From Straminergon stramineum (Eukaryota > Streptophyta > Bryopsida > Hypnales > Calliergonaceae): a stretch of 64,000 nt of DNA. Location: contig OY987271.1 in assembly GCA_963920665.1 (NCBI GenBank), positions 14,635,350 through 14,699,349 on the forward strand. Reading direction: 5' to 3'. Shown here piece after piece: positions 27,279 to 61,562 of the stretch (the stretch's first letter is position 1; every line of letters begins with the position of its first letter). The notes under the pieces are model-generated. The model saw only the letters and a program-made list of their open reading frames with translations, made no database searches and was not told the origin of the DNA. A program made the position numbers and the translations under genes.

Positions 27279-27337
27279 CTGCACAGTCATCCAAAATAGG
27301 TGTACAATCATGTACAATGCGATGAAAGTAATGCATG

Positions 27338-30696: not shown

Positions 30697-30931
30697 CCCT
30701 GTGAGGGTAAAACAGAGGTACCAAAAACTAGTGTTTGTGAGTGAAGTGACAGATCAGGAATCCGGAAACAGAGTGAATCCGGATTGGATTCCGGAAAGAG
30801 AGAGCTTAAGTTGGTAGAACGGATAACCTAGGCTTGCAACAACATACTAGAATCCCCTGGGACGATATTTCGAGTTAGTTTACACGTTTGGGTGTTGTAA
30901 ATGGTATTTACCACACGCTACGCGTACGACA
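30697..30931 (+). mobile_element. Element B, 3' terminal fragment
   Basis: About 235 bp match the 3' end of the B copy at about 52447-52681 (GAGGGTAAAA, CCAAAAACTAGTGTTTGTGA, through to CGTACGACA). The fragment ends exactly at the B terminus and is followed by GATAC within an A fragment, consistent with B having inserted into A there. Its 5' portion is cut off by A copy 1. Confidence 0.8.
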
Positions 30932-31473: not shown

Positions 31474-32261
31474 CAATGACGCTAGAATATGAGCGGGGAG
31501 CGATGAGCGTTGAGCATTGAGCAACAAAAGATTAGATTTGAGCGCTCACTATGAAGATATTTATTAAAAATAGACATGTCAGAGTAATAAATAGGCTTGT
31601 TAGACTGAAATATAGTAATGTCAGAAACGAAGAATAGAAAAATTTATAAAGTTTTTTTGCATAAGTTTTATTCAAAATAATCAATTTGCAATCAAATGAT
31701 GTATGAAGGGCATCAATGAAAGACTAGCATCCAAAAATGACTTTTTTTCACACTCTACTACTATAGTACATGTCCTAAAAAATGCCTTTTTCATTTTTTC
31801 ATTTTTCCCAAAATATTAATTTACAAAAATTATTACAATTTGCATTGTTTATCTCAAAACTTTGTTAAATAATTTGAGGTTGGTTTAGTGTTCTTTAGAA
31901 CCAAAGAGCACTTTGAAGGTTTATTTGGAGATATTTAATAATCAATCGTATAATGTTGTTGGGATATGGTTATTGGTGAAGTACTCCTTGGAACTAAGGA
32001 GCACCTTCATGATTCATTTGTAGAATTGTAACATTTCATCCTACACTGTTGTTTGGTTGAATTCAACCTCTTTCTTATATACTTTTTTTGATGTTTATGA
32101 TTTTACATATGATTTGAGTCGTCCTTGGGTTGTCATGAACTATTTCCACCTCAATCTAATTAGGATTTGGGATATTTTGCAACTACTCCAATTGACAATT
32201 CTATATCCACCTTTAAACATAAGTGGTTTTACTATCTACTACAAGGCAGATATATAATATC

Positions 32262-35200
32262 TTATAGATTGCTACCTACAAGAAGTAGCTTCACTTCATC
32301 AAAGCTCAGACTTGGTGCATGTATATACTTGTCGTCCTTAGAGTTTGCCTTACAAATGAACCTAAAGACATAATACAAATGCTTGCAATTTACCCATGAT
32401 TTCCTACTACCAAGTGCAGCTGTACTCATGGTGATGAAGTCTTCGCAGGTACAAGCAGGGAAGTCCGAAATTGTGATTCGATAGACCTTCTAGTAGGGTA
32501 AGATACCAGATATTAGAGAAATCACTCTACCATAACCAGGGTATGGAATAACAACTACAGATTGAATGACAACTTTTAAGTTTCGTGCAGTCTTTCATTT
32601 GTTGCGGTGGTCAACTGTAGGCGCATTAGGGTTTCGTCGGATGGTCCTTCCTAATCGCTTTGTGGGGTGCATGTCACCGTTAGATGGTTGTAGATTGCTA
32701 TCTAGTTGCTTCGAGTGAAGGAGGGACAGACCTCTCCCTGTACTCTCTTCATTAAAGAGGTGGAGCGATGGTTCATCTATATTCTTAGTTTGCAATTGGA
32801 AACCTGCTTCCTCTAAAGAAAGGATCTTTGATTTGGTGAGATGTGTCCCACATGCAATAGGCCAAACATTTGGAAGAGGAGGCTAGTCATGAACCCACTT
32901 CACCTTAAAGCCTCCTACGCAATGCATGAGGTCGTCTGAGCAAAACTAGAAATCAAAGTTTATAATGGCCTTGGTTCCATATTCTGTCATGCGGTTGTTG
33001 TAGGTAGGTGATGTTGTTCCACTCTTGTTTGCCTTGTTTATCTTGGCCCCACATTTCTTCTTCATTCCAACTTGAACTCCGTGACAAGTCTTTCCTTCCT
33101 TCATACACCTAGCAATGTGCCACAAAGAAGGGTTGCAATTTGTTTCAAGTACCTTAGTAGCGTGAGGGCGTATTGTACTTGGTTCTGCTTCTTGTATCAA
33201 CATTGGCACTGGTGTTGATGCGCCTGCTTCTATACGTGCTCTTACTGATCGAGTCTGAACTTTTGGTGCAGAGAAGTTCACTGTATCATGGCGGTGAGAG
33301 TCACCATCTGACCCAGGTGGCAGATTTAGTTTGCGCTTTGAGGATCCAAAGACTTCTTCACCTTCTAAATGGGGAACACGTATAGTGAATAGGTGAGCAC
33401 TTGGTAGTTTGGCGGCAACCTCGGCAAATTGTGCTGGATTTTTGGTTCGTCTGGCAACTTGAAGGCGAAGTTCATCCAAGTGGGGACCTGTGCCGGATGC
33501 ATACCCTTGGAGGTATGCCCAATAATTTGTTGATTGTTGAATAGCACGCATCATGTCATCTGTGGTGGCGACATATAAGCAAGTTCCCCTCTTCCTAGAC
33601 ATTTGCAACCACTTGTTGTGAACTGTCTCTGCCAAGTTGCATGAAGGCATTTCAGCCAGCTCCTCCAAGTTCAGGTTCTACACCAACAACAAAAATTTTG
33701 AGAGGTGCGGTAAGGCTTTTTTAGTTCCCAAAGTCTAATTTTAGTACTATGAAGTTTGAGTATTTAGCTCAAATTTGTGCAAATTCTTTACATGTGAAGG
33801 AAAACAAAAAAATAGAAAACACATACATTTTGGACATTAAAAGAACTTGCAAGTGAATAGAAATTAGGCCAATTGAAAAGGGAAATAGAAATTTGAGGAG
33901 GCATATGCCGTACCAATTCAAGAAATCCACCCCATTGTCGATATCAGAAGTGCCAGAAATCCAACCAATCATCTAATTCTCGAAGAGAGTCCTCTGATGC
34001 AGCTCTTGAAGAGAGCCACCAACCTTTGATTCCTAAATATCTTTCTTCCACTTCCGCCATCGACTTTGCATCTTTGTATTGTTTACAAAGCATCTTGTGA
34101 GTTTCTTGGAACTCTATGCGAATGAGCTTCTCAGTATGTCTATTAATCGATGTTGTCCAATGAAGTAGACAGGAGCGCTCCCGATCTTGCATTAGCTCTT
34201 GCTTGTTGCCACTTCCATATACCACACGAACAGCATGCCAGTTGGCCATTGTGTTGTCAACCAGAAAACCCTTGAAATTTGGAGAAGAAATCCCATGGCG
34301 CGCCATAACAGAGTTAAGCGATCTCCACATTTGCTCTTGTGACCGAGCATCTTCACTCATCATGTCGCAGACGCAGATAGTTTGAACTCGACAAAACTCA
34401 AGATCGTAAACATGGGCAGCCATTGACGTCCATCCCTTCACCCTCTTTACATGATCAAACATGCACCAAGAGTTTTGCAAGTCTCCACCAGGTTGCATTC
34501 GCCTTACCAAGTCTACTCTGCTTCCTGGACCTTCTTCAGACATCTTGAAAAGGTAAACCTTCTCTTTACCTTGTCCTGAAAAAACGCTATCTTGAATAAA
34601 AGAGTAAGCACTTCTCATTTTCAAGGAGATAGTGTTGTCAATGGGTCCTCCATTCGTACTGTGACGGAAACCTGAGATGGTATTTCGAATACTCGGAGAA
34701 CTAAGTATCCTGAATTTCTCCATGACAGCTTCAAGGGCCTCTCCACGGAGGGGCTTTCGGTCACTTTGTAATCCTTCCTCTCTAAACAATTCAGATGCAA
34801 GAAAATCCTTACTAGCAGCAAGCCGAATGGCTGAATTTGTCGCAGTTGGTGTCTTTGATACTTCTTAACTAATCAAAGATGTTGTTTGATCAACAGAATC
34901 GCTACAAATGCCTTTACCCACAGGATGATTGTGAATACCAACATGGATACAAGCTCTAGGAAGACCTGAAGAGTTCAAGACCCTATACATACGACAAGGA
35001 CACTAAGCTTTGCATGAAGGAACTTCCTTACAAATCTGACATATAAGATTAGACTTTGTTGGTGATTGCTCTCCCACAACAAAGATGGTAGGTGATGACC
35101 CCTCCCACTCTGTCTCATTTTTGTTGCCGCTGCGCTGTAGTCTAGGGCATGCTTTGTTTTCGCAAACAAGGTGGCCCACATACAATGAGTAGTGGAACTT

Positions 35201-36031
35201 TAGGCCAAAGTCATTCACAATATTAGTGGTGTGTGTGTGTGTCTAATTGTGTCCATCAAACTTACGGTCCATGCCCTCTAGCTATCGACCTATAGAAGAT
35301 GAAGAGTTTGAGCTGGGTCGAGTTCCGGAAAAGGAAAAGGAAGAAGGAAGAGGAGGTAACTCAAAGAGTACATCCCCATTAAATGATTGAGGAAGATGTC
35401 GAACAGATTCACAACGAAGTGCGTTGAGGTTTAGAAACTTCAACTCATTCCGAGCACGTGGACGACTCTACATATCTCTAAGGCACTCCAAGACGCTCAC
35501 AAATTTAGTTTCCCTTTGATGAACAGAAGGATGCAATGTGCTATCATGCTTAATGTTGTCCTCATCGAATAGAGTGTCTTCACACTTTTCAGGTATGGTA
35601 GAGAGCTTGGAATTCTCATCAATGATAACAACAACATAATCATCGGAAGACTCTGTAAGATCAATATGGTTATAACTTGGAGACTCTACCTTTATACAAG
35701 TTCCCCAAGACATCTGAACAGTAGAGGTTGCAGATCCGGGTGTGAGAATTTCTGTTGACATTGACCTAGTGACCCTTGGAGTACCGAAAGTATGGTACTT
35801 GCCTGGGGAAAGCTTCCACATGACTCCTGAGTCATTCTTGATCTTCGGTAGCATGACAATAGATATGACTTGAACTCCCTTGGAATCGAATATCTCCTCC
35901 TCCACCCATAAAGAAGACAACTCCAAGTTGAACCTAATACTGAGAATCAATGCAGATATGCATGCTACACCATCATCACTACAAGGAAATGAAATTGGAA
36001 TGCTAGACCTGTCACCATGAACAAGTGCCAT
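32262..36031 (-). pseudogene. MULE-1 transposase (Mutator-like, SWIM zinc finger)
   Basis: Two exons, 36031-33914 and 33677-32262, encode about 1,175 codons aligned end to end with the MULE-2 protein. The N-terminal region holds a Cys/His zinc-finger-like segment (NLICQICKEVPSCKA ... ACIHVGIHNHPV). The central DDE-type core has TICVCDMMSED, GFLVDNTMANWHAVRVVYG and ERSCLLHW (the C-x-x-H-like box), then EERYLGIKGWWLSS. Exon 2 ends in the SWIM finger ACTCEDF ... NCKHLYYVF. Proteins of this kind cut and move elements with matching inverted repeats. The frame is broken by many stops: TAG at 35468, about 35285 and about 35243, TAA 34865-34867, TGA 33944-33946, TAG 32946-32948 and 32883-32885. At most of the positions that align, MULE-2 has Gln, Arg or Trp. 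The start is chosen at MALVHGD because it aligns with MACIRVHG of MULE-2. Confidence 0.82.
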
Positions 36032-36597
36032 GTCCATACTTGAATCTACATACAATCTATAAAGTCATGGTGAATGTTATTGCTTGCCTACATGGGGGAA
36101 TCCAAAAGCTTTTTTGTCATAGTACCTAGATGACAATGAGACGGATTGAAGAGAAAGATTTCGGTTGTTTTATATTGGATTTTAGTGATTTGAAATTTGA
36201 ATTGAGAAGCCTGCATTTAAGGATTTTATGTCCGTCCAACAATTCAATTATTTTATTTCAGTTACCATTACACAATCCTTAGAATTATTAATTGTAGATT
36301 GCGCCACACTCATAGATGATCAAATGAAGGCACATTAGAAGCCACCAAATAGAGGCTTCTTTCTATGTAGGATTGATATTTTGAAATGTAAGAGTGATTG
36401 TGAGGCAGTTGAGCAAAAAAGGGTTGTTAGTGTCTGTTGGAGTTCAAGTGAGTAGATGTCGTTATGTCATGAGAAGCTCTAATAAATTGGATGAGAATAT
36501 GTTCATCAACCTCTAAGATTGATATATATTGGAGAGATTGTAAAGTTAGCAATGAAGAAGTAGAATTAGTTTTGTTGTAGTGTTTTTGGTTGGAAGG
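36032..36597. promoter_or_regulatory. Head-to-head intergenic region of MULE-1
   Basis: About 566 bp separate the ATG of the leftward transposase from the ATG of the rightward ParB/methyltransferase-like gene. Such a gap would have to contain both promoters. It is AT-rich; I see no single convincing TATA box, and the assignment rests on gene positions only. Confidence 0.5.
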
Positions 36598-37059
36598 ATG
36601 CCAAAGGGTTCTCGTAGGAAGAGACGTAAGGCTGGTCTTCTTTTTTCTAGTAAGAAGCAATTAGAGAAATCAAAGATGTTTAAATGCTTGCAGAAGGTCA
36701 ATGGCACTAAGATTAGTAGCATTGTTCAGACCTTGTCCTATGAAGATCTTGGAGTTGAAGTTGGGCATTTTCAGTGTGGGGATAGTTTGACACAAAATAG
36801 TGAAGGAATGAATATTGCCAAGCTTGATAGTGTGGATGAAAGTGGAGAGGACTTACGTCAATCAAGCCCTCCAGAGAACAATACATCGGTAAGAAGCATA
36901 CAGTTGGTAAGTTCATCTATTTATTGTTGGAACTAGATTCATTAGATAGAGAGGAGTAAAATTGAAGGTAGGAGGTCCATAAAGCGTCCATGTAAGAGCT
37001 AAAACTGAATTTAGGGGACGTGAAACTTCTTGAAATATTTTTCAGTAAATTTTCCTTGA

Positions 37060-37155
37060 AATAGAAGAGGAATTGACATCTAAACCAAGTCGTTTCATAT
37101 GTTTTTGAGCTTTGAAGAATTAGTTATGATTTTTTGAAGTCAAAATGGTAGAAGG
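37060..37155 (+). repeat. Dispersed repeat shared with 62975-63070
   Basis: About 95 bp here (GAATTGACATCTAAACCAAG, then TCGTTTCATA ... GAATTAGTTA ... TTTTTGAAGT) match the region at 62975-63070 outside the MULEs with scattered differences. It does not overlap any exon that I call. Confidence 0.7.
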
Positions 37156-39406
37156 CTCTAAAATCGCCCCTGTCCTCAAATGTACACAATTGATACATCC
37201 ATGTAAAGATGAAAAAATCCCATGTACAGAGAGTGTACATTTGAGAGGTGGGCAATTCAAAATGCCCTAACGGAGTTCGAGCCTCCTACCTTACATGTTT
37301 TTATTTGTTAGAGGTGCATTTGACACTACACACTACATTGCGTATTCCGAAAAGAGGATTCCAACGGTATATAGCATGTAAGAAACGGAGTGTTTTTGAA
37401 TGTTTTACGTCCTAAAAACAAATTCAGCATCTTGGAATCTTCTCAGAAGATTTTTCACCCAAATCTTGCCCATGTATTTTTAGAGGATTTTGACGATTTC
37501 TGTAAAATTGTCCATGAGTCCAAAAAATTTGGAAAAAATTGAGGTGAGTTCTAAGGGTTATAATCTATATGCCCACAAAATTTGGACTTGAAATCTTCAA
37601 AATCACAAAATCTAATCAGAAGATTCCTTTGCCCTATATCTACCAATCTCTTCCTTATTTGTTTTTTTTGTTTTTTTTTGAAACCAAAGATCAACTTGCT
37701 GGTTAGCCTAGGGTTGGCTTTTTCATAGTTCTCTTTGTTTTGTGTTGTTGCGTTTTTGGGCGCATTGCTTGTTGTTGCTTCTACGATGAACTTAAGGAGT
37801 GCCGTATTGCAGCGGAAGGATGGAGAGGAGTGCGGTGAAAGCGGGAGGGGTGTCCCTGTATGCATCGAAGGCGTTGATGCTCCTCAAGCCACCGAAACTC
37901 CTCAACAGGTGCCACTTTTTAGCTTCTAGACTACTTGCTGAGGCTATACAATACCGCCTCGTTAACAAGGCTTCAATCTTGCGATGTTTCATTTCTCATT
38001 GAAATAGTACGAATTGAGGTTTAGGGTTTCAAATTTATTTTTTTTGATTGCTGCTTTGGATTCCAGAACATGACCTCGTCAACGAGGCGTCAATTTTAGG
38101 GTATTCAGGGTCTCACTTCGACATTATAATTCAAGGGTGCATGGTTCTAGTTGCTTTTTAAAATTCTTCTTGATAGCTTGCTTAGGTTGTAGAAGATGGC
38201 CTCGTCAACGAGGTCTCAATTTCTAATTGTTTTCTATCTCCCTCCAATGGTACAAGCTTAGGCTATCGGGTTCCAATTCATTTTCTTCGATTTAGCACTT
38301 GGGTTGTCTAATATGGCCTCGTCAACGAGGGCTGAATTTCCAGTTGTTTTAAGTTTCACTTAGGCCACACATGTTTAGGAGGTGTGGTTCCAATTCATTT
38401 TCTTCGATTTAGCACTTGGGCTGTCTAATATGGCCTTGTCAACAAGGGCTGAATTTTTAGTTGTTTTAAGTCTCACTTGGACCATACATGTTTGGAGGTG
38501 TGGTTCTAATTCTTTCCTTCAATTTAGTACTCCGGCTGTCCAATATGGCCTCGTTAACGAGGTCTGAATTTCCAGTTGTTTTAAGTCTCACTTGGACCAT
38601 ATATGTTTGGGAGTGTGCTTCCAATTCATTTTCTTCAATTTAGCGCTTGGGCTGTCCAATATGGCCTCGTTAACGAGGTCTGAATTTCCGGTTGTTTTAA
38701 GTCTCACTTGGACCATACATGCTTGGAGGTGTGCTTCCAATTCATTTTCTTCAATTTAGCGCTTGGGCTATCCAATATGGCCTCGTTAACGAGGTCTGAA
38801 TTTCTGGTTGTTTTAAGTCTCACTTGGACCATACATGCTTGGAGGTGTGCTTCCAATTCATTTTCTTCAATTTAGCGCTTGGGCTGTCCAATATGGCCTC
38901 GTTAACGAGGTCTGAATTTCCGATGGTTTTAAGTCTCATTTGGATCATACATGCTTGGAGGTGTACTTCCAATTCATTTTCTTCAATTTAGCGCTTGGGC
39001 TATCCAATATGGCCTCGTTAATGAGGGCTGAATTTCCGGTTGTTTTAAGTCTCACTTGGACCATATATGTTTGGAGGTGTGCTTCCAATTCATTTTCTTC
39101 AATTTAGCACTTGGGCTGTCCAATATGGCCTCGTTAACGAGTGTGGCAGCATGAAATTCTAATTTTTTTGGTTTTATTTAGTAATACTAACCGGATAGCT
39201 AGATAAGGATATCCGGATTTGGTTAAGAAACCAGAAGGAGCGGAAATAGAAGTGGAGAATGGGTTAGCAACAAGATTTGCTCCATCCCGTTTCCAGAGAA
39301 TAAACGGATAAAAGCGGATGTCGGACCGGATAAGTGACGGACCAGATATCTTAGACGAACCGGATCCGGATTAGGTCGTGCTGAGGTGGCAATAGGGGCC
39401 AGCCAG

Positions 39407-39413
39407 TATAAAG
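39407..39413 (+). promoter_or_regulatory. TATA box upstream of the element A gene
   Basis: TATAAAG in CCAGTATAAAGGGGCTAG, 247 bp before the ATG at 39660. The same site is seen in inverted orientation in the other full copies (near 58675-58680 and, altered, near 30425-30432). Confidence 0.55.
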
Positions 39414-39659
39414 GGGCTAGCCTGGCCAGTTGCACCCCTTTTCACTTTTTCATTTTCCAGCACTCCTCGTGTCTGTTAGTTTAGGCGTTCCATGTCAGGT
39501 ACTATGGCAAGTGTCTTTTGCGACTGTTCTAGTGTCCGCTACAGTGTTGATTTGATTTCCGGTTGAGATCGGAGAGTGAAGGAAAGGAACGGGACGTGCG
39601 GCTAGGAGAGCGACAGTAAGGCAAGATCGGAAAGGGTTCCCAACAGCTCGTGCGCGATC

Positions 39660-41312
39660 ATGCCGTAGCTCAAAAGGACTAGAGGTCAGGCTAGCTCGTC
39701 GTCAGAGGTCAAACTTCGGAAAGTAGTTCCGGTTATCCCACTGTCAAAGGATACTCGCGCAGAACTCATGGACAACTTGAACTCCATGGGTTGTATAGGG
39801 TTTGCAACCAAACCCTGGGGTTTCAAGGAGGAAGTCTTCGTCTGGGAACTCTCGGGGAAAGTGTCTAACGAGTTTGACAATACGCTGAGAGCGGGTCCGC
39901 CTCTCTGGACGGAAGAAGTCTGGAGGTTAGTGTACAGCTTCCGGCCAGGAGGATTCGGGATGGCCAACCGGAAGGACGACTTCGTTCGGGGCAAGTTCGA
40001 GGGATCGGTCAACCCGAAGGACGGATACGCCATCGAGGACTGTAAGGACGAGCGGAACCGCCGACTCCTGCAGTTCATCATTCCGATCCTCCATCCGGAG
40101 AAGCCAACAAGGGTAACTATTACCCTTGTGAATACTATTTTCGGGGCCTTGAGAGGGGACCAGAAAGTCGACTGGGCCCGAATCGTTTCCGATCTGGTGC
40201 TCCAGTTAGTCAGTAGAATCGGAAAGAGTAGGGCAACTCCAATCAATCCCTACTTGATGCACCTCTATCAGTCAAATCAACTCCTGAACGACAGAGAGGA
40301 CGAGGTGTATAAGAATCAGGAAGTAGTTCTCAGATATGGGGAATCAAGTTTGGATCGGGAGAGCGAATCCGGTTCTGAACCGGGGGAGGATTCAGAGTTA
40401 GAAGACGAGGAGGCCCCAGTACCGCCGGTCAAGCGCCACAAGACTACCTCCTCGAACAAACGAGGGACGCCACCTGGGCCCAACATTCCCACTCCGGAAG
40501 GGAAACCAGAAGAGGAGAAGGCAGTGGATCTTGAGGACCCGTTCCCACCTCTGGTGAAGGTCCTCTGTGACATCCGGATGGACTGGGAAAGGAAGAAGAG
40601 GATATTAGTAGCCATCGGGCAGTTGGTGGGAGCAGCACCCGACCGGGAGCTACCGAAAAAGGTGGCGGCCTGTATTTTTGATCCGGTCGAGTCCCGGAAG
40701 TAGGAAGCAGAGATCCGCCGGTTACAAGAGGAGGTGGATCGGATGAAGACGGAGATCCTGGTGCACCAGGAGAACTTTGCCACCACCAAATCGATTGCAG
40801 AGGATGCTCGGCAGATGATGGAGCAAGTGAAGGCCACGTTCGGGGAGACCGGAACGGCCCTCACCAAGGCCAAATTATTTGACGAGCGGATGCACGAGGA
40901 GAAGAAGCTATCCGGTACCCGGATGGTGCGGATCCTCAACAACTTTGCCGAGCAAGTAGAAGCGGCAATGCAAGAGGCACGAAAGGCAGCGGACCGGATG
41001 GAGGAGAGTATCCAGATACTATCGGGAGCAACCTGCTCTCACGGTATCCGACTCTCAGATATCTCCCTCCCGGATTCGTTCTCGAAAGTGACAGTTGGAG
41101 AGGGGAAGGATACGACCCCGAAGTCCAAGAAAACGACCCAGGTCGGCACGCCTGGAACCGCCATCGACTTGGACTCACCGCCCGCGTCCACAGAAGGCAA
41201 TCTAGTTCCTCAACCTCAGGAGATCGATAGGAGTCGGAACCTCAACGAGGTTTTTGAGCAGATGGACCCGGGAGCGGACAGCGCAACCATCGGATCGCGG
41301 ATAGGGACTTAG
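39660..41312 (+). pseudogene. Element A protein, copy 2
   Basis: The frame runs 551 codons from ATG 39660 to TAG 41310-41312 with two internal stops: TAG 39666-39668 (CAG in the copy at 58420) and TAG 40701-40703 (CAG in the copy at 29123-29125). It is the best preserved A gene and keeps the CGA codon (40461) that is TGA in two other copies. Conserved N-terminal blocks include KVSNEFDNTL, YSFRPGGFGMANRKDDF, KFEGSVNPKDGYAIED and VTITLVNTIFGALRG. Then come an acidic Ser/Glu-rich stretch (about 205-225), a basic patch (KRHKTTSSNKR) and a C-terminal helical, coiled-coil-like region. A Gag-like structural role is possible; nothing indicates an enzyme. Confidence 0.65.
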
Positions 41313-41452
41313 GATGTGCAGAGTAGGTAGAATAGGAACGGATACGGAACCTATTCCGGTCCAAGTGGGGAGTAGGTAGGATCAGAAAGTCTGACCGAGA
41401 TGGCGGCGGAACTTTCGTGAGTTTTCCCGCCCATTTGTAACTTTTTGAAATG

Positions 41453-41459
41453 TATATAG
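41453..41459 (+). promoter_or_regulatory. Second TATA box near the 3' end of element A
   Basis: TATATAG in AATGTATATAGTCAGCGCCC, conserved in inverted orientation near 28367-28373 and 56626-56632. It lies about 140 bp after the stop of the A gene and about 1 kb before the element end. In an LTR reading this would be the U3 promoter, with the gene inside U3. Confidence 0.5.
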
Positions 41460-44400
41460 TCAGCGCCCGCGAGGGACGTTGGGAGTCTTCTTTTTGCAAT
41501 TTTTGTTGTACCTTTGTATGCGCTCTCTTGTTGTGTGTGTCTCCCAAGCTTGGCAGGTTTGCATGATGTGGAGTTAGGAAGGTGTAAGGCAAAGTTGTGG
41601 TTAGATTTCTCCCCTTAGTGCGATAGTTTCCGATCCTTAGTGTGTGTGCAAGTTGTGTAAGAGTTGGGAGTGTATTTCAGTGCCTCAGCAAGATCTAGGG
41701 TTTTGAAGTTCCGGGTGAGATAGCCGCTGTTAGGCTATGCGGATAGGGAGGGTATCCTTAGTCGCGTTAGAACTCCTGGACAGGTAGTCCGGTCAAGTGT
41801 CCGACCTTGTAAGAGGTCTCATCACCACAGATTGGTAAACGGAATGATCCTTGGTACTGTTGGAAAGGACGAGTACACTTGTAGCCACCTAGCTTCGCAC
41901 GGGTGAGGGCTAGCATTGAGGTCGTTGTAGCAAGAATGGATCGTACAAGGGATCTCTGTGTGACCTGCATTCCGGATTGCTGTTGGGAGTGTTGTGAGGG
42001 ATCAAACCGGATTCGAGTTAGTTAGGAGAGGAAGGGAGAGAATAGTGGGTCTTCAACCACTATAATCCGTAGAAGGAGTGGTGGGCCTACCACTCAGAAA
42101 CCTAAGCGGCGAACCCTTTGATGGTCCAATAGAGGCAAAACTAAATCGGAAGAGTGTTGAGGAGGTACGGGAACCAGTCGGAGCGGATTGGTTCAAAGTA
42201 GTACCAGGACCGAAATTGTTTAGGTCCTAGAGATTGGGAGAATTGGTTTTAACGGAGGATTTCTGAATCGGGTAGGAAGTAATCCGGTCCTGATCCTCTG
42301 GGTGGTTGTTTGTTTCCGGTTTTAGATCTAGGACCGGAAGGAAGTTTTAGAAGGTGAAAGCGCTTACTCGCCCAAACCAAGTAAATACTTCACAGAATCT
42401 GGTGGGTTCGATCTTTAGAGTCACTTCGTTATGCTCTAGAGTGATTTTTGTGAGCATAACTGGGAATTTACTTATCCTCTGCTGCGACAACGAGGTCTGA
42501 ATTTCCGGTTGTTTTAAGTCTCACTTGGACCATGTATGTTTGGAAGTGTGCTTCCAATTCATTGTCTTCAATTTAGCGCTTGGGCTGTCCAATATGGCCT
42601 TGTTAACAAGGTCTAAATTTCCGGTGGTTTTAAGTCTCACTTGGACCATATATGTTTGGAGGTGTGGTTCCAATTCATTTTCTTCAATTTAGCACTTGGG
42701 CTGTCTAATATGGCCTCGTTAACGAGGTCTAAATTTCCGATGGTTTTAAGTCTCACTTGGACCATACATGCTTGGAGGTGTGGTTCTAATTCCTTCCTTC
42801 AATTTAGTACTTCGGCTGTAGAAGATGGCCTCGTCAACGAGGTCTAAATTTCTGTTTGTTTTAAGTGTCACTCAGACCATAAATGTTTAGGAGGTGTGCT
42901 TCCAATTTTTGTTTCAAATGTTGCTTTAGACTATAGAATATGGCCTCGTCAACGAGGTCTCAATTTCTGATTGTTTTAAATCTCACTTGGACAATGCATG
43001 CCTATGTTCTATGTTTATATTCTTGTTTCAATTGCTAGTTTAGGCTATAGAATATGGTGTCATTAACGAGGCCTCAATTTTCAATTCATTTGGGTCTCAC
43101 TTAGACGGTTCCTGTTTATGGTGTATGGTTCCAATTCTTGTTTCGATTGTTGGTTTAAGCTATAGAATATGGCCTTGTTAATAAGGTCTCAATTTCTGAT
43201 TCTTTTGTATTTCACTTGGACAATACAAGCTTAGTATGCATGTTTTCTAATTTTTCTAAAACAGGGCTTCATGGATGTCGATGGAGGGCTTACACAAGTA
43301 GACTTGCTAGAGCTCAACATCAATGATGAATCTGAGATTGCCATTACTATTCCTCAGGTTTGATACATTTTCAATTCTCTTTGGATTTATGTCACATCAA
43401 CCATTCTTGTATCATAGTTGTCATTCAATTTGCTTTGTTTTTCCATGACTTCATAGTATTAACTACAATTTATTTTCAATATACCATTCATTGTAGGTTG
43501 AGAATACTGTTGGAAGTAAAAGTGCTACTCAAGCTTTTGAAGGGCGAACGGTAGAAGAGGTGGAACACGATGTACAACATGGTCAAAAGCTTGACTCCAA
43601 CGCTGTCATCAATAGTATGCTATTCAATGGTGGTGGGACAGGATCCCGATTTGATATTCCTTTGTGTAGGATGATTGGGCTTCCATTGGTACGTCTTCTC
43701 CTTCAAAGTCAAGTCAAACGATTGGAGGCTGAGTTTGTACATGGATATCGACAAGGGGATCGTGTGCTTTATGTGTCTACAACGAATGACAAGGGACTTT
43801 GTAAGTTAGTGACCCCCGAGATCGTGGAGACATGGGATGAACACTGGATACAAGAGAATGACCAATTTGAGTGTTGGTTAAAGTCTCAGCCATCCATCTC
43901 ACATTTGTCAAACCATATGTTTTTTGTATGGGATAGCAATCATAGATTGGCAACTTGGTATGCTTACATACACAAGATGCATCGTCATGATCGCAAGTGG
44001 CATTTGCTCGTTGATTGTATGCTTCTGGTGTCAGAAGGTCACACATGCATTCTATTGGAGGCTATGAATGACATCAATTGGTGAATTTCAATTTGTGGTA
44101 AAATAAGTTCTTCTTTACTTTACCACTTCTTGGAATGTCTTGCAATATTCCATGTCTTCAAATTCATTCATCTTACATTCTACTTCCATTGGTATTTGAA
44201 GGTCTACAGAGCATTCCCATGTCAAGAGCAATTTGGTTCAACAATTGCATAGGATGAGTACTTATGGCAATTTGAAACTAGAAGAGTTCAAGGGTCTTCT
44301 AAGCAATGAGGATTACAAGAAATGCTAGAATAGAAAACTGCCAGGTGCTTGGTATCCATTGACATCAAACGTCTTCATACAATTCCTTCATCGAATGAGT

Positions 44401-48476: not shown

Positions 48477-48486
48477 CCTCTCAGAG
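48477..48486 (+). repeat. Target-site duplication of MULE-1, right copy
   Basis: CCTCTCAGAG, identical to 31464-31473. Confidence 0.9.
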
Positions 48487-52200: not shown

Positions 52201-52681
52201 TTAGCGAACAATTTACAATCCTTACCTTAGTTCTAGTTTTTGTTGGTCTATCGTTGTAGTGGAGAAGGCTTGTTACGGATCTGAGTGACCTGCTTTTCGG
52301 GTTGGCCATCCGGAAGGTTGTGAGAGTGTTCCCATTCAATTGAGTGCAGCAGTTGGTCTAAGTGTGTGTTTTGTGGTTTTGAGAGAGAAGAGAGAGTGAG
52401 AAATACGAGTGGTGAGTCCCTACCCCTCTATACAATCAAAGGTGGATCCTTTGAGGGTAAAATAGAGTTACCAAAAACCAGTGTTTGTGAGTGAAGTGAC
52501 AGATCTGAAATCCGGAAACAGAGCGAATCCAGATTGGATTCCGGAAAGAGAGAGCTTAAGTTGGTAGAACGGATAATCGAGGCTTGCAACAACATATTAG
52601 AATCCCTTGGGACGATATTTCGAGTTAGTTTACACGTTTGGGTGTTGTAAATGGTATTTACCACATGCTACACGTACGACA
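49207..52681 (+). mobile_element. Element B (3.5 kb, TGTCG...CGACA ends)
   Basis: The unit begins TGTCGCGAGTCGTAATC and ends GCTACACGTACGACA, so it has TG...CA ends like A. The right end is confirmed by the separate fragment ending at 30931. The left flank is GTGAA inside element A and the right flank is GGACT before the MULE-2 transposase, so no target duplication is left and the copy is probably a recombinant. The 3' part shares motifs with A (for example GTGACCTGC followed by a CGG-TTG box at about 52286-52310 and 41960-41980), so the families are related. Confidence 0.72.
49628..51613 (+). pseudogene. Element B protein, related to the A protein
   Basis: One frame of about 660 codons runs from ATG 49628 to TAG 51611-51613 with stops at 49766 (TAG), about 49793 (TAG), about 50060 (TGA), about 50420 (TAG), about 50993 (TGA) and 51422 (TGA). 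The N-terminal half aligns with the A protein: WTDEVWAKVYGF, KFKNATHSKEGYAISD, VLEFLIPILYPEKP, VANTIFGAFEG and SPIGPYLFHLYHH. The TGA near 50060 falls where A has Arg (PEKPTRVT). Downstream are an acidic Glu/Asp/Pro-rich stretch, a coiled-coil-like region (LERKDKQIIALEKEKVDLQA) and a Glu/Pro-rich tail not found in A. The stops fit C-to-T or G-to-A change. A Gag-like role is possible. Confidence 0.6.
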
Positions 52682-55600
52682 GGACTACTTGGATGGCGGT
52701 GCATAATGGGCAGCTACCTCTACCGGTAGATTTTATCACTCAAATAAAATGATTAATTATCATACCTACCCTAATTAATGTATTGCTCACCCAAATTTAA
52801 TTTCCAAAATGAAACGGTGCTACATAAGGCCATTTGAATTTGGATGCCTTCTCTGATCCCAAAGTTTCATTGCCTCTCAACGTCCCTTAGCTCCTACTTT
52901 TGTTCCACGAGGATGGCTTGTATTAGAGTGCATGGTCAAGATGCTCCACTTGTGTTTTCCGTAGACGATGGACAATTAGCCAAGGTCATGAGTCACCTCC
53001 TATACATACACTTCAAATTTGTAGAGTCCTCCATCTACATTGAAGAGGAAAAATTGTCCCAATCGAGTGAATTGGTGCAATCCATTTCGGTTGTCAAGAG
53101 TCTAGATGCAGATGGCCATTGCTGGTACCTAGCCCCAGGGAACTACAGGGCTTATGGACTTCCGCTTTCCATGCTAGGGGTTTCAACAGAAATTTGGAGT
53201 CGATAGTCGGATAACTCCACAATCGACATGCCATATGTTACACGCACGGTAACACCCAGTCCACCTCGTGAGGGCTTCCAGGTGCTCTGTGAGAGTACAA
53301 TTCTACGGTCAGTGAAGGTAGAGAAACTAGAATCCATCATAGAATTGTCGAGTGAATCAAAAGGGGAGTCACCTAATGTGATGCTTGAAAAGAAACAACG
53401 CCCAATCCCTTTTGAGTCGAGGGAAAAGGCTTCTATACACTCAGAACCAAACACCCCCTCCAATAGTCCAGCCCCATCACTATTGTCACGTCCTCTAGTG
53501 CACCCATCACCGACTCAATAGGTCAGCATAATGGAGTGCTTCAAGAGATTGGCGACCGTGCGGCGTTCGCGGAATGAACTATCCAATATGGATGTCAACA
53601 CCGTGAAGTACTACCGTGTGTAGTACTTGCCGATTGATTTCAACGGGGACGTCATCTTCGAATTGCCCCCATGTCGATCTATATCCTCCTCCTCCGCTGC
53701 CAAGAACCTCGAGGGAATGGTCAGGCGGTACAATGGACACCCATGGTGTAAGCTGATGACCACGAACATTCACAATTCCGACAACCTCAAGTTCCATAAG
53801 TCATAGTGCGTTGGACACCTTGCTTCTCAAAATCCTGAATGCAATTATGTAAAAAGGGCTTCCAAAATGAACGAAACAGAATGGACCGGTTACACAATCT
53901 GCCCTTTTGCTAAAGGGGGGACTCCTCCCAAAGATTGTACTCTAGTATGCAAAGTCTGCAAGAGCCCCCTTGTGTGCTTGAATGCATGTGATCCTAGAAT
54001 TTACTACGTATATTGCGATAATGAAAAAATGACTAGGGCTGCTATACACTTTGGAGATCATACGCACCCAGTAGCGAAGGGTGTATATAGAGACTCCACG
54101 GAGAAAATCTCGGGACTCATTGCACAACAAGTGGCCAAAACGCCCATGGCCACCAACTCTACAATTGCACTTTCTACTAGCAAAGAGTTCCTCACGAACT
54201 ATTTGTTTCACAATGGAGAGGGGGAGAAAGAGATGTTGAAGGGAGAGGAACTAGAGGAAGTCATGGATTGATTCCAATATCTTAGCAGTCCGAACATTAG
54301 GAATGTCATTTCATCGTTTCGCTCCAACAACAAGGGAGGGGTCATCGACAACATCATGACAATGAAGAAAGAGTCAAAGTTCAAGTTCATACATGACAGT
54401 GTCTTCCCAGGACAAGGAAGGGAGAAGGTCTACCTCTTCAAAATGCTCACAGAAGGACCCGGAAGTGGAGTGGACCTCGTCAAACGAATGTAACCAGGAG
54501 GGGATTTACAAAACGCATGGATATTGTTTGACCACCTCAAACGCGTCAATGAGTGGAGTACCATGGCATGCCACATGTACGATGCGGAGTACAAAAAAGT
54601 CATGACCGTGGCCACTTGCGATATACAATCGGAGAACACGAAGATCCAAGTCCAGTTCTGGAGATCTCTAAACACGGTCATGGCAAGACATGGAGTGGAA
54701 CACACCAACTTTAAAGGATTCATGGATGACAGCGCGACGGCCAATTGGAATGCGGCGCGGATTGTCTATGGAAGTGGGTTGCCCAATGAGAAAATGGAGA
54801 ATTGCGAGAGAACGTGTTTGCTACATTGGAGTAGTTTGCTCCACAAGCATACCCAGAAGCACATCAAAGAAGCATTCCAACAACAACACATTACCCTCTG
54901 CAAACAATACAAAGAATCCAAGATTGTCGAAGAAGTAGAGACGCGGTACCTCGCAATTCAATCCTGGTGGTTGTCATCGGGTGCTACAAGTGAAGAAGAC
55001 CTTCATCACTTGGACCACTGGCTAGCATTCTAGCATTTTCGATACCTACAGTGGAGAGGCTTCATGACTATGGTAAGTGACTTCGTAAGCTGATTTTGAA
55101 ATATCCGTTCCCCTCTATCTAAAGCAGTTGTTGATAAATAGAGGTGTACCCTCCAAACTTAGGGGCATGTTCGTGGTGACTTCGATTTATACCATTCATG
55201 TAGGAATTAATTTTACCTTTTCCGAATTCATTGATGAGCATGTGGTGGGGGACCCAAATGAGGGGTTCAAGGATAGGGCACCTAGACCTCAGTTGAATCC
55301 GACTGAAGGTTCTGGGTTCAAATATGTTACCTTTTTTTGGGAGACTCCCACTCCAGAAGGAGCTCTTGGACCCCTTCCTCAGAATCTCATGTCAATCTTT
55401 TTCCTCCAAAGTAGACGTCTTGTGTAGTGCTCATTCGTGGAGAAGAGAATCTCTTTTGTATTTTTACATTTACAAACGTCTTGTTGTGTAAGCAAATGAG
55501 GTTCATACATTTGCAATGAGTCCGAGATGATCACATGGGCTATTAACCCTCCAATATGAAATTGGATGTCCTCACTCATGTGTTATGGATGGATGGATTT

Positions 55601-58600
55601 TGTCGCAGCACAGGATAAGTAAATTCCCTGTTATGCTCACAAAAATCACTCTAGAGCATAACAAAGTGACTCTAAAGATCGAACCTACCAGATTCTATGA
55701 AGTATTTACTTGATTTGGACGAGTAAGCGCTCTCACCCTCTAAAACTTCCTTTCCGGTCCCAGATCTAAAACCGGAAACAAATAACCACCTAGAGGATCA
55801 GGACCGGATTACTTCCCTTCCGATTCATAAATCCTCCGGTAAACCCAATTCTCCCAATCTCCAGGACCTAAACAATTTCGGTCCTGGTACTACTTTGAAC
55901 CAATCCGCTCCGACTGGTTCCCGTATCTTTCCAACACTCTTCCGATTTAGTTTTGCCTCTATTGGACCATCAAAGGGTCCACCGCTTAGGTTTCTGAGTG
56001 GTAGGCCCACCACTCCTACGGATTATAGTGGTTGAAGACCAACTGTTCTCTCCCCTCCTTTCCTAACTAACTCGAATCCGGTTTGATCCCTCACAGCAAT
56101 CCGAACAGCAATCCGGAATGTAGGTCACATAGAGATCCCCCGTACGATCCGCTCTTACTACAACGACCTCAATGCCAGCTCCTACTCGTGCGAAGCTAGG
56201 TGGCTACAAGTGTACTCGTTTGTTCCAACAGTAATTAGGATCATTCCGTTTACCAACTACGGTGATGAGACCTCTCAGAAGGTCAGACACTCAACTGGAT
56301 TACCCGTCCAAGAGTTCTAGCGCGACTAAGGATACCCTCCCTATCCGCATAGCCTAACAGCGGCTATCTCATTTGGAACTTCAAAACCCTAGATCTTGTT
56401 GAGGTACTGAAATACACTCCCAATACTTACACAACCTGCGCACACACTAAGGATTGGAAACTATCGCACTAAGGGGAGAAATCTAACCACAACTCTGCCT
56501 TACACCTTCCTAACTCCACATCATGCAAACCTGCCAAGTTTGGGAGACACACACAACAATAGAGCGCATACAAAGGTACAACCAAATTGCAAAAAGAAGA
56601 CTCCCAACGTCCCTCGCGGGCGCTGACTATATACATTTCAAAAAGTTACAAATGGGCGGGAAAACTCACGAAAGTTCCGCCGCCATCTCGGTCAGACTTT
56701 CCGGTCCTATCTACTCCCCACTTGGACCGGAACAAGTTCCATATCCGTTCCTACTCTACCTACCCTATACATCCTAAGTTCCTATTTGCGATCCTATGGT
56801 CGCGCTGTCCGCTCCCGAGTCCATCTGCTCAAAAACCTCGTTTAGGTTCCAACTCCTCCTGATCTCCTGAGGTCAAGGAACTGGATTGCCTTCTTTGGAC
56901 GCGAGCGGTGAGTCCAAGTCGATGGCGGTTCCAGGCGTGCTGGCTTGGGTCGTTCTCTTCGACTTGGGGGTCGTATCCTTCCCCTTGCTTGCCGTCACTT
57001 CCGGGAACGAATCCGGGAGAGAGAGATCAAAGAGTCGGATACCGCGAGAGCAGGTTGCTCCCGACAGTATCTGGGTACTCTCCTCCATCTGGTCCGCTGC
57101 CTTCCGTGCCTCTTGCATTGCTGCTTCTACCTGCTCGGCAAAGTCGTTGAGGATCCTTACCATCCGGGAACCGGATAGCTTCTTCTCCTTGTGCACCCGC
57201 TCGTCAAACAACTTTGCTTTGGTGAGGGCCGTTCCGGTCTCCCCGAATGTGGCCTTCACTTGCTCCATCATCTGCTGAGCATCCTCTGCGATAGATTTGG
57301 TGGCTGCGAAGTTCTCGTGGTGCACCAAGATCTCCGTCTTCATCCGATCCACCTCCTCTTGTAACCAGCGGATCTCTGCTTCCTACTTCCAGGACTCAAC
57401 CGAATTAGAAATACAAGCCGCCACCTTTTCCGGTAGCTCTCGGTTGGGTGTTGCTCCCACCAACTGCCCGATGGCTACGACTATCCTTCTCTTCCGTTCC
57501 CAATCCATCTGGATGTCACAAAGGACCTTCACCAGAGGTGGGAACAGATCCTCGGGATCCATTGCCTTCTCTTCTTCCGGTTTCCCTTCCGAAGCGGGAG
57601 TGTTGGGCCCAAGTGGTGTCCCTCATTTGTTCGGGGAGGTAGTCTTGTGACGCTTGACCAGCAGTACTGGCGCCTCCTCGTCTTCTGACTCTGATTCCTC
57701 TTCCGGTTCAGAACCGGATTCGGTCTCCCGATCCGATCTTGATTCCCCATATCTGAGCACTACTTCTTGATTCTTATACACCTCGTCCTCTCTGTCATTT
57801 AGGAGTTGATGCGACTGATAGAGGTGCATCAAGTAGGAGCTTACTGGAGTTGCCCTACTCTTTCCGATTCTACTAACTAACTGGAGCACCAGATCGGAAA
57901 TGATCCGGGCCCAGTTGACTTTTCGGTCCCCTCTCAGAGCCTCGAAAATAGTGTTCGCAAGGGTAATAGTTACCCTTGTTGGCTTCTCCGGATGGAGGAT
58001 CGGAACGAGGAATTGAAGGAGTCGGCGGTTCCGCTCATCCTCACATTCCTCGATGGCGTATCCGTCCTTCGGGTTGACTGCTCCCTCGAACTTGCCCCGG
58101 ACGAAGTCGTCCTTCCGGTTGGCCATCCCAAATCCTCCCGGCCAGAAGCTGTACACTAACCTCCAGACTTCTTCCATCCAGAGGGGTGGAACCACTCTCA
58201 GTGTATTATCAAACTTGTTAGACACTTTACCCGAGAGTTCCCGGACGAAGACTTCCTCCTTGAACCCCCAGGGCTTGGTTGCAAACCCTATACAACCCAT
58301 GGAATTCAAGTCGTCCATGAGTTCCGCTCGGGTATCCTCTAATAGTGGGATAACCAGAACTACTTTCCGGAGTTTGACCTCTGACGACGAGCTAGCCTGA
58401 CCTCTAGTCCTTTTGAGCTGCGGCATGGTCGTGTACGAGCTGTTGGGAACCCTTTCCGATCCTGCCTTACTGTCGCTCTCCTAGCCGCACGTCCCGTTTC
58501 TTTCCTTCACTCTCCGATCTCAACCAGAAATCAAACTAACACTGTAGCGGACACTATAACACTCGTGAAAAACACTCGCAACAATGACTGACACGGAACG

Positions 58601-58944
58601 CCGAAACTGACAAACACGAGGAGCGCTGGAAAATGAAAAAGTGAAAAGAGGTGCGACTGGCCAGGCGAGCCCCTTTATACTGGCTGGACCCCATTGCCAC
58701 CTCAGCACGACCTAATCCGGATCCGGTTCGTCTAAGGTATTCAATCCGTCACTTATCCGATTTGACATCCGCTCTTATCTGTTTATTCTCTGGAAACAAG
58801 ATGGAATAGATCTTGTCGCTAACTCATTCTCCACTTCTATTTCCGCTCCTTATGGTTTCTTAACCAAATCCGGATACCCTTATCTAGCTATCCGGTTAGT
58901 ATTACTAAGGAAAACCAAAAAAATTAGAATTTCATGCTGCCATA
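55601..58944 (-). mobile_element. Element A, copy 3 (full length, TSD GATTT)
   Basis: On the plus strand it begins TGTCGCAGCACAGGATAAG (55601) and ends TTCATGCTGCCATA (58944; CATA instead of CACA, one C-to-T change). GATTT flanks it on both sides (55596-55600 and 58945-58949), a perfect 5-bp target duplication. It sits in the MULE-2 transposase intron, only about 10 bp before the exon 2 splice acceptor. Confidence 0.88.
56774..58426 (-). pseudogene. Element A protein, copy 3
   Basis: The frame starts at ATG 58426 with MPQLKRTRGQASSSSEVKLR and ends at TAG 56774-56776, about 551 codons. Internal stops are TGA 57623-57625 (CGA in copy 2), TAG at about 57384-57386 (CAG in copy 1) and TGA at about 56879. 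Same domain plan as the other A copies. The second-position codon CAG (about 58418-58420), which is TAG in copy 2, is intact here. Confidence 0.65.
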
Positions 58945-60589
58945 GATTTGTAGAAATTGAGTTTGGAGGAGATGACCGACCTACCTTTCTGCAATTTGTC
59001 TGAAACAGTTCACAACAAATGGCTTCAAATGTCGGGAAAGCGAGGAGGCAACCTCTTCGACACAACTTGCGATGGCAGCATTCGTGCATGGATGCAAATG
59101 ACCAACTACCGGGCATACCTCAAAGGACATGCATCTGGATCCGGGCTATCCAAGGGGGAGCTCAAATTTAGAGCTACGAGACGAAGTGGATGTGCCAAGA
59201 AAATCAGAGAAGCATTGAACACATTGCTTGGAGCAGAGGGGGTGGGAACAAGAATACCACACTTGGAAGGAGAGGAAATCCTTGGGAGCATGAAGAGGAA
59301 GTTGGACATACCCATTGGTGATGCCAGAGATTCACATAGACCGGACAAAGTGAACTTCTCTCAACCGCATGTGAGAATCAGGTCCACAACGGCTTCTCTT
59401 CAATCTTTGGAAGGCCCAAGTGAACAACCTCAAACCCAGAACCCTAAACATGTCACTACAGCATTTGAAAGTGACTGTGACACCTCCAAGTGGCACATTG
59501 CTAGGATCAGCTACAAGTCCAATGCAAAATGCCACACACAACAACGGACCACCAACATCAGGTGCGCCTCCAAAATCGCAAGGGGAAGGAAGGGAACACC
59601 AGCTCCAACCTATCGGGGCAGAAAGGAAGATTATGGGAGCAAGCGGGAGGTGGTTGTCGACTTCTGGTTCTGTTGGGATGACATTGAACGATGTGTAAAG
59701 GGTACAAAAAGGAAGTGGATCATTGACTGGCCTGAGGTGCCAAAGGTGTGGCCTGTTCTGAGTGGGACCAACCTCAGTAGGGAGGAGACTCTCCTGTTGC
59801 AACATGCAGGCTTCCACCTTCTAGAAAGGCCAACATTGTCCCCATGGCGACTCTTCACCATGTCGAAGGTTTTCCAGACTGTATTGTATAACCAACCAAC
59901 GCCCAAGAACCTGAATGCATATCCAACGGTTAGGAACAACCGAACCATTTGGAGGATAGCCAATGCACCAACTACGGAACAACAGAACAAGTGGGAAAGT
60001 GCAGCAAATGTTAAAGGACAAATACTGGGAGTCACCTTGCTCCCCTTTCCAGACCTTGGTGCAATAGTGGCGCTTGAGACAGGGACAGACACTAATAGAA
60101 ACATCTATCGAATTATAGTGGGTATGTTCCCCACGTGCACATGCCCAGACTTTGTGAATATGGTTGTTTCAGCTATTGGAGGTTGACAACAATACGCGAA
60201 TTGCAAACACCTATACTATTTGTATAGGTACTTCTGCAAGATGGACATCCATGAGGACAAATTCATGCATGCACCTAGTTATAGCTTTAATGGACTAAAG
60301 CTACTCCTAGTTTGAGCAAGAATCATTACAATTCCAAAATAGGCAACCCTACATTTATCCATGTACCTCAATTACATAGTATTCATTCACATATATTGCA
60401 ATTGAAATGATTGGCACTGTACTAAGGGAAAATGTTAATGCATTCTTGAAATATAGAAGCATGTTTGATAAGTGAAGTGCTTTGTTGCCAATTCATATAG
60501 ATGACTATATTTCCAAGTCTTTTTCCTAGTTTCAAAACGTCTTTATAGTCTTTTTACCTCCAATGTGTTCCCATTCATTTTCCCATTTT

Positions 60590-60860
60590 TTAAATTTATT
60601 TTTTTATTTAATTCCTGTGTCCCCAGTTTTCTTTTCCCAATTTTAATCCTTTCCCCATTTTTTTTTCTCTTCCCAATTTTTTTCCTATCCCCATTTTTTT
60701 CCTTTTTCCCATTTTTTTCCTTTCCCCATTTTTTTCCTTTTCCCATTTTTTTCCTTTCCCCATTTTTTCCCTCTTCCCCTTCTTTTTCCTTTCCCCATTT
60801 TTTTCCTTTTCCCCTTTTTTTTCCTTTCTCCATTTTTTCCCTTTCTTCATTTCTTGGATT
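60590..60860 (+). repeat. Pyrimidine-rich microsatellite-like tract
   Basis: Imperfect repeats of TTTCCCCATTTTTTTCC (about 15-17 bp) fill the stretch. Long open frames on both strands here encode only Phe/Pro/Ser or Lys/Gly/Glu strings and are a by-product of base composition. The tract lies between the MULE-2 transposase stop and the right inverted repeat. Confidence 0.85.
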
Positions 60861-61553
60861 CCTCTTTCTTTTTTCCTTTTATTTCGTTTATCTTCTCCAT
60901 TCTCTACAATTGGGGGGAGGATGTCAACATTTTGGCAGTTCTTACAATTATGAAGAGAAATGAATTTTATAATTGTAAATAATGTAAACCACGAAAACTA
61001 AAGATTCGAGTCAAATGCCCACCCTAAATCCACCATGGCTTCTACTCATCATTTCACACAAACCTTGAGGTTTTCTACTCACCCTTCACATATGCACTTA
61101 CCTAAACTCACATGAAAAATCCCAATTGTTCTAGGATATTTAGACACCAAATCCTATGTATTCAAATTAGATAGTGAAAACAACACAACTAAGTTGTGTC
61201 CAAATGGCATCTATCTATAATCCTGAAACTATCTAGCATATTTCCCATTGTAATCATTGAACTAAGTGCTACAACTTTCCAATAAAATTTGACACTCTTT
61301 TTCCATAGTAATAAGCAATTTTAGAAGAATAAAAAATAACTCATTCCAGAGTCCACGGTTTTAGGGGACATGGTCATAGGTCACAATATTCACTTAAAAT
61401 AGGAAATTTTTGTCTATTTTGGGCGAAAAAATGAACAAAAAATATTTGAGGGCAAAAAATTGCCCCAAAAAAGTTTTGGAGGCTCTAGGCTCACATACTC
61501 CACGCTTATAGCTCACAGGCTCACGGCTCTAAGCTCACATGCTAGTGTCGTTG

Positions 61554-61562
61554 AATTGTGGA
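61554..61562 (+). repeat. Target-site duplication of MULE-2, right copy
   Basis: AATTGTGGA, matching 26024-26032. The right inverted repeat just inside it contains several GCTCAC/GCTCTA repeats (about 61469-61545) that are shorter at the left end. Confidence 0.78.

Follow-up and report, generated by a model that had tools for sequence, protein, structure and literature searches.

Is the second gene of a Mutator-like element (MULE) an inherited part of the transposon, or is it cargo captured by chance? This question is raised by a stretch of 64,000 nucleotides of the Straminergon stramineum genome (contig OY987271.1, positions 14,635,350 to 14,699,349), hereafter referred to as the window. It contains two elements, MULE-1 and MULE-2, in which a transposase gene is accompanied by a second gene, the partner, whose product is predicted to combine a ParB-like fold with a methyltransferase-like fold. 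A preliminary description of the window had proposed that the two elements share their ends and that the partner is inherited with them. The analyses presented here show that the two genes recur together, mostly in divergent orientation, in the genome from which the window comes, and MULE-1 and MULE-2 almost certainly belong to an inherited two-gene element.

Two nested elements with a common layout

MULE-1 has inserted into a retroelement and lies within the outer limits of MULE-2. Its limits, ends and transposase gene are as follows.

31474-48476: MULE-1, two-gene element of 17,003 bp including a nested 3.35-kb repeat, with 21-bp ends, a CCTCTCAGAG target duplication and a clean empty site
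31464-31473: left copy of the target duplication, CCTCTCAGAG
48477-48486: right copy of the target duplication, CCTCTCAGAG
31474-31494, plus strand: transposase-side end, CAATGACGCTAGAATATGAGC, next to subterminal GAGC repeats
48456-48476, minus strand: partner-side end, TAGGGTTGCTAAAATATGAGC, read inward
32265-36037, minus strand: transposase gene, decayed, with core exon 33944-34864, a SWIM-like C terminus and a core fold closest to ISCth4

When the flanks of MULE-1 are joined minus one duplication, they give an unbroken match of 290 columns, 90% identical, to a retroelement copy at 57790-58079. The inverted arms of the element measure 43 nt and are 91% complementary. The retroelement hit by MULE-1 is bordered by direct repeats of ~235 bp (30698-30932 and 52448-52682, 94% identical), which are probably its long terminal repeats.

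The corresponding features of MULE-2 are the following.

26033-61553: MULE-2, outer limits, with 21-bp ends and a AATTGTGGA target duplication
26024-26032: left copy of the target duplication, AATTGTGGA
61554-61562: right copy of the target duplication, AATTGTGGA
26033-26053, plus strand: partner-side end, CAGGGTTGCTAGCATGTGAGC, with 66 exact copies in the genome
61533-61553, minus strand: transposase-side end, CAACGACACTAGCATGTGAGC, read inward
26373-26619, minus strand: remnant of the last partner exon, limits approximate
26701-26911, minus strand: remnant of partner exon 11, ASIVACHGTGRHIVALEE, 3' limit approximate
27005-27278, minus strand: remnant of partner exon 10, 274 nt, 38% amino acid identity to MULE-1, equal in length and phase
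52913-55084, plus strand: 5' part of the transposase gene, decayed, 3' limit approximate, core with 57% amino acid identity to MULE-1
58954-60312, plus strand: 3' part of the transposase gene, with a SWIM-like motif

The DNA of MULE-2 itself amounts to ~6.8 kb in three pieces (about 26033-27340, 52691-55600 and 58947-61553), the remainder being nested retroelements and MULE-1. The right end at 61553 agrees with the preliminary description, while the left end at 26033 falls outside the range noted there. As had been described, all that remains of the partner gene in MULE-2 is its 3' end, and an exon of exactly 274 nt is common to both elements (46743-47016 in MULE-1, 27005-27278 in MULE-2), followed by an intron in the same phase.

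The 21-bp ends reported for both elements were found at the offsets given earlier, each present once in the window, and their likeness as inverted repeats is 15 and 16 of 21 positions in the two elements. Over the outer eight bases, the partner-side ends of MULE-1 and MULE-2 are alike at 7/8 positions and the transposase-side ends at 6/8, compared with 2-4/8 for the other pairings. In both elements the transposase gene is aimed at one end and the second gene at the opposite end. Target duplications of 9-10 bp, within the 8-11 bp of MULEs, flank all four elements for which both ends were read.

When read through, the transposases of MULE-1 and MULE-2 each hold several in-frame stops. Structural models and profiles predict a transposase core of the Mutator type (IS256-like), and the family is likely of this type. 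The SWIM motif claimed for the transposase is visible as C-x-C...C-x-H, while the Pfam SWIM matches miss the cut-off (E 0.79 for MULE-2 and E 0.071 for C4, another copy introduced below). A transposase scan of GTDB detected one relative, on a 4.1-kb contig labelled as belonging to a Synechococcales bin (L001, 4101 bp). It has an open transposase in two long frames, interrupted roughly where MULE-1 has its intron, and is likely eukaryotic contamination of the bacterial bin.

The two genes recur together and face opposite ends

The window's own genome (326 Mb, 59 contigs) was searched for three parts of the element. The ParB exon of the partner gave at least 151 matches from 746 first-look candidates, of which 150 were listed and used; the transposase core gave at least 129 from 954 candidates, and exon 9 of the methyltransferase-like region, taken from another copy, at least 150 from 700. 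The counts below refer to the matches listed. A ParB exon lies within 15 kb of 64 of the 129 transposases, compared with a mean of 1.9 and a maximum of 6 for random placement (500 trials), and 59 of the 64 pairs are divergent. When either the ParB exon or exon 9 is accepted within the same distance, 101 of the 129 transposases are paired, 95 of the 101 divergently; the corresponding random placement gave a mean of 4.2 and a maximum of 10 (300 trials, 20 kb). Co-occurrence of this kind was the test that the preliminary description had set for itself. For the 24 transposases closest to MULE-1 (at least 77% identity), 22 have a ParB exon within 13 kb, and all 22 pairs are divergent. Seen from the partner, a transposase is present within 15 kb of 62 of the 150 ParB exons and an exon 9 within 8 kb downstream of 39 of them; for the unpaired ParB exons, a mate beyond the listed matches, decay and true loss are indistinguishable.

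The ends show the same polarity. Of 66 exact partner-type ends, 26 are followed inward by a partner exon (the ParB exon at up to 8 kb or exon 9 at up to 4 kb), which is aimed at the end in all 26 cases. Likewise, 26 of 90 transposase-type ends have a transposase no more than 6 kb inward, again aimed at the end in 26/26 and never located outside it, and a partner exon lies within 5 kb of one of the 90. Against this polarity, the nearest inner gene at six of the 66 partner-type ends is a transposase, 7.9-11.6 kb away, one of these being the nested MULE-1. No such gene was listed for 40 partner-type and 64 transposase-type ends, so that many are solo or deleted copies or ends of genes outside the listed matches.

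Two further elements, C1 (15,836 bp, target duplication ATCATAGGGC) and C4 (15,824 bp, CCTTACAAC), carry both end types on the same sides as the window elements. They are 98.6% identical over 15,833 columns and have separate target duplications; this level of identity indicates that the family moved recently.

Similar constraint on both genes in one pair of elements

Nonsynonymous (dN) and synonymous (dS) divergence was measured between two elements, those at C7:380 kb and C5:6.10 Mb. The values of dN and dS were 0.045 and 0.637 for the ParB exon, 0.058 and 0.515 for exons 9-11, 0.074 and 0.514 for exons 5-11, and 0.065 and 0.49 for the transposase core. These values point to a similar age and a similarly strong constraint of the two genes. 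Stops occur in exons 8 and 9 of the C7 copy, and the exon 10 match of the C5 copy spans one stop that is perhaps intronic. Among MULE-1-like ParB exons, many of which contain stops, the mean dN is 0.038 and the mean dS 0.069 (ratio 0.55, 78 pairs), and the close pair L029/L031 has a dN/dS of 1.26 for this exon. Between MULE-1 and MULE-2, for which dS is saturated, the ratio of the proportions of nonsynonymous and synonymous differences (pN/pS) is 0.58 for partner exons 10-11, and 0.33, 0.48 and 0.68 for the core, the start of the second exon and the N terminus of the transposase, respectively. Both long frames of the C4 transposase are open; stops are present in exons 7 and 8 of the C4 partner and, once, in exon 8 of the C1 partner. 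The partner copy at C7:22.17 Mb is open in exons 5-11 as far as these were read, and a copy with both genes open throughout was not found among the elements read.

The recurrence of the pair, the orientation of the genes at both types of end, and the similar divergence and constraint in the one pair of elements uphold the earlier proposal that the partner is inherited with the element rather than carried as cargo by chance.

The partner combines two predicted domains

The partner gene was modelled on MULE-1, with some uncertainty about the first exon and the donor of exon 4.

37786-47689, plus strand: partner gene, GT-AG splice model with 12 exons, 1132 residues and two in-frame TAG stops
43497-44080, plus strand: exon 3, predicted ParB/sulfiredoxin-fold domain, with structure matches to ParB (AlphaFold2 predicted local distance difference test score 83.6)
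46276-47329, plus strand: exons 9-11, N6/N4 methyltransferase-like domain, PF01555 match at E 8.9e-7 (29.5 bits, cut-off 26.7), motif IV reading DIPDG

Judged by its fold matches, the predicted structure of exon 3 has the ParB-N fold. The motif G-x-x-R-x-x-A binds nucleotides in the ParB/sulfiredoxin superfamily. In an alignment of ParB exons (65 rows aligned, 52 of them lettered at this site), the G is present in 47, the R in 45 and the A in 49 of the 52 rows; MULE-1 itself reads SNHRLAT. The original ParB call is thus borne out by the predicted fold and lacks support from sequence profiles. PDB sequence-profile searches gave nothing useful. Exon-level searches of a set of 5.8 billion public proteins gave 323 and 64 matches, the 64 being obtained with the ParB exon at E 0.01. 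A full-length partner query against the same set gave zero matches, probably because the exons are stored there as separate frames. Pattern scans of GTDB and IMG/VR revealed no relatives of the ParB exon, and none of the IMG/VR scans yielded a relative.

The methyltransferase call, in turn, holds at the level of the PF01555 profile, which MULE-1 matches above the cut-off and the C4 copy below it (24.1 bits). PF01555 was also the only family returned by a Pfam scan of the read-through MULE-1 partner at E 1. Scanning the whole genome exon by exon with this profile at E 0.001 gave no match, and the window's own exon itself scored just 0.0021. Motif IV was surveyed in 25 copies, namely 20 short stretches picked across the identity range (19 of them stop-free) and five elements. 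The form [DNS]PP[YFW] occurs in none of the 25; its fourth place, normally aromatic, is D or E in all 25, and 17 copies read DC(Q/P)ENLP or DxPDGLP. Motif I is DCxAS(T/I)G, compared with DPFMGSG in the aligned DpnA chain. In our judgement, this domain is not a standard METHYLTRANSFERASE; it is constrained, but methyl transfer of the usual kind is improbable for it.

A possible role in escape from silencing

By analogy with VANC of the Arabidopsis VANDAL elements, we favour escape from silencing as the role of the partner. Targets of VANC are short motifs in tandem repeats of non-coding DNA, including introns, and differ between related elements (PMC5735166, PMC10398659; these and all other papers are cited from excerpts). 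In the mechanism that we propose, the two genes would be inherited as one unit, the ParB domain would serve as a nucleotide-controlled DNA-binding module, and the methyltransferase-like domain would bind DNA or a cofactor, adding no methyl group. Together, the two domains would act in trans on related copies, as VANC does, and binding to the element's own non-coding DNA would guard it against silencing. Taken as a whole, the statement that a large, likely Mutator-type family pairs its transposase with a ParB-fold/methyltransferase-fold partner that likely binds the element's own non-coding DNA against silencing is, in our judgement, evenly poised.

A candidate target is present in the first intron of the partner gene.

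37938-43251, plus strand: minisatellite in partner intron 1 of MULE-1, a 14-bp palindrome core at 17 sites (3 mismatches or fewer) within ~116-bp units, split by a 3.35-kb repeat at ~39141-42490

The 3.35-kb repeat has three copies in the window (27338-30697, 39141-42490, which is inverted, and 55601-58946), one within this minisatellite and two within MULE-2, and contains a frame with MDDLNSMGCIGFATKPWGF or close variants.

The ~116-bp units centre on the core CCTCGTTAACGAGG. The genome contains 25 exact copies of this 14-mer and none of the reversed control, and for 24 of the 25 a ParB exon of the transposon family follows 426-4948 bp downstream. Among 24 fetched loci with a ParB identity of at least 68%, 23 (L002-L024) have the core within 1.5 kb of the exon. 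The array fits a VANC-like target pattern in one subfamily. In 191 units from these 23 loci, non-CpG core positions match at 98.2%, and CpG-type changes account for 422 of the 467 differences from a presumed ancestral core, whose central CG is uncertain, being found in 1/191 units. These transitions suggest that the arrays were cytosine-methylated in the past. A more specific version of our proposal, in which the ParB/pseudo-methyltransferase protein would load on the palindromic arrays of its own intron in a parS-like manner, spread, and keep the element and its relatives unmethylated, seems doubtful to us.

Several observations weigh against a role in escape from silencing or against parts of the proposal. 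Among the listed matches, 28 of the 129 transposases have no partner exon within 15 kb, and at four of the 66 partner-type ends a ParB exon lies outside the end. No partner gene was seen open over its full length among the copies read. The Foldseek match to ParB never reached E <0.001 (best 0.066), and the Pfam scan of the read-through MULE-1 partner at E 1 did not find a VANC-type domain. In the next subfamily (L026-L031, ParB identity 49-53%), none of the six loci fetched has the array, and the fragment L025 (72%) lacks it too, so the array cannot be a general target. Its dyad pairs are complementary no more often than expected after shuffling, and perfect palindromes make up 15 of 191 cores; this failed test for a maintained dyad lowers our confidence in the parS-like version. 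Conservation of the bases flanking the core is nearly that of the core itself (0.76 and 0.81 versus 0.875, using a unit filter that demanded AATT downstream). Finally, another gene in the window, at 7234-12013, also carries a near-palindromic CpG repeat, so that such arrays are not unique to the ParB partner.

Alternative explanations

That the palindrome array is a passive minisatellite without a binding role comes close to an even call, and this would be compatible with every other reading. Expansion by slippage, dyad covariation at the shuffled level, the CpG-type nature of most differences and the similar repeat in the neighbouring gene all fit a passive array, whereas its presence at 23 of the 24 loci and the conservation of its core do not: no other 14-column window is as well conserved as the core in the eight diverged units (84% versus 60% elsewhere), and over all 16 units the core ranks second, by 0.002.

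The main rival, although we think it unlikely, is that the partner is a transposition factor of the same inherited element, which would bind subterminal GAGC repeats at either end and aid assembly or cutting by the transposase, with no role in silencing. GAGC is found 6, 5, 2 and 6 times in the terminal 120 bp of the four MULE-1 and MULE-2 ends, compared with ~0.35 expected from the window, and the similar constraint on both genes in one element pair would agree with such a function. However, the GAGC repeats are expected from binding of the transposase alone, and the palindrome arrays of one subfamily, located far from the ends, would be left unexplained.

We consider it very improbable that the partner has DNA methyltransferase activity and marks the element's DNA with N6-methyladenine or N4-methylcytosine by means of an unusual motif IV. 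The PF01555 match, the strong constraint on exons 9-11 and the active 5-methylcytosine (5mC) methyltransferases known from retrotransposons (PMC5890265) speak for such an activity, but the aromatic residue of motif IV is replaced throughout and motif I departs from that of DpnA. With the catalytic motif missing from the copies read, a role in marking DNA is unsupported, and direct methylation was dropped as the leading interpretation.

That separate elements each captured a host gene independently was rejected as the cause of the recurrence and is the least credible explanation, since, although host-gene capture is frequent in MULEs and a non-transposon host copy of the partner may exist, 101 of 129 transposases are paired and 95 of the 101 pairs divergent, diverged elements share the end and orientation, exon 10 is equal in length and phase in MULE-1 and MULE-2, and in one element pair the two genes have diverged to a similar degree at synonymous sites.

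Relation to known systems

MuDR, which has long terminal inverted repeats (TIRs), carries mudrB as its second open reading frame. The elements described here resemble MuDR (mudrA/mudrB) and Mutyl (mutB; PMC6446971) in their autonomous two-gene layout with such a second frame; the partner domains differ, judging by the families found, and the ends are short and end-specific, without long TIRs. With the VANDAL elements they share an extra gene and tandem-repeat motifs in non-coding DNA, but here the partner has predicted ParB and methyltransferase folds, and anti-silencing is a proposal. A protein domain conserved across many MULEs is also a feature of the KIU/ULP1 MULEs (PMC13317346), in which it is a Ulp1 peptidase instead of ParB/methyltransferase.

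Acquired DNA methyltransferase (DNMT) genes are present in retrotransposons of dinoflagellates and charophytes (PMC5890265); those encode 5mC enzymes with shown activity, whereas the element here is a DNA transposon with a domain lacking the catalytic motif. DIRS1-like retrotransposons also have a methyltransferase domain, which is located in the pol region, and ParB is not mentioned in the excerpts of that paper (PMC3266345). In prokaryotes, ParB and an adenine-type methylase are fused in one protein, as in Bce_0392 of Bacillus cereus, the ParB domain of which nicks DNA (PMC5512222); unlike that protein, the partner is eukaryotic, and its ParB exon has no relative in the GTDB and IMG/VR pattern scans. 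Extra genes in MULEs are already known (PMC6446971, PMC13317346), and in a study of 1631 MULEs the word methyltransferase occurs 0 times in the main text, while SET domains are listed (PMC6446971). In searches of the open-licence PMC literature, at the level of titles, abstract openings and excerpts of selected papers, no MULE appeared whose partner is of the ParB or N6/N4 methyltransferase kind, and "mutator-like" combined with "parb" gave 0 papers.

From VANC it is known that certain plant MULEs counter silencing by means of a self-encoded protein. If our proposal is correct, a second, unrelated partner with a ParB fold, strongly selected in a family that is large and has moved recently, would point to repeated evolution of such partners. 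It would also add a new DNA-binding protein together with candidates for its target sites. The more specific version with parS-like loading, if true, would amount to an anti-silencing system of independent origin and would place a ParB/parS-like module in a eukaryotic nucleus. An arrangement of ParB and methyltransferase that is known from prokaryotes would extend to a eukaryotic transposon, with a methyltransferase-like domain under selection despite its missing catalytic motif.

Other features of the window

The neighbouring gene at 7234-12013 has eleven copies (up to 2 mismatches) of the near-palindromic CpG motif AGGTCGAGTCGACCT between its exon-like frames, and may represent a further element or gene that bears CpG palindromes in repeats. 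The frame 12646-13443 gives a match to NIF-type phosphatase (PF03031, E 4.2e-12). On the minus strand, 15645-19736 is an open frame of 1364 residues for a Ty3-type polyprotein with gag, protease, reverse transcriptase, RNase H and integrase domains. The region 5458-5743 consists of an 88-bp tandem repeat that is rich in GGGCGGGTA-like words.

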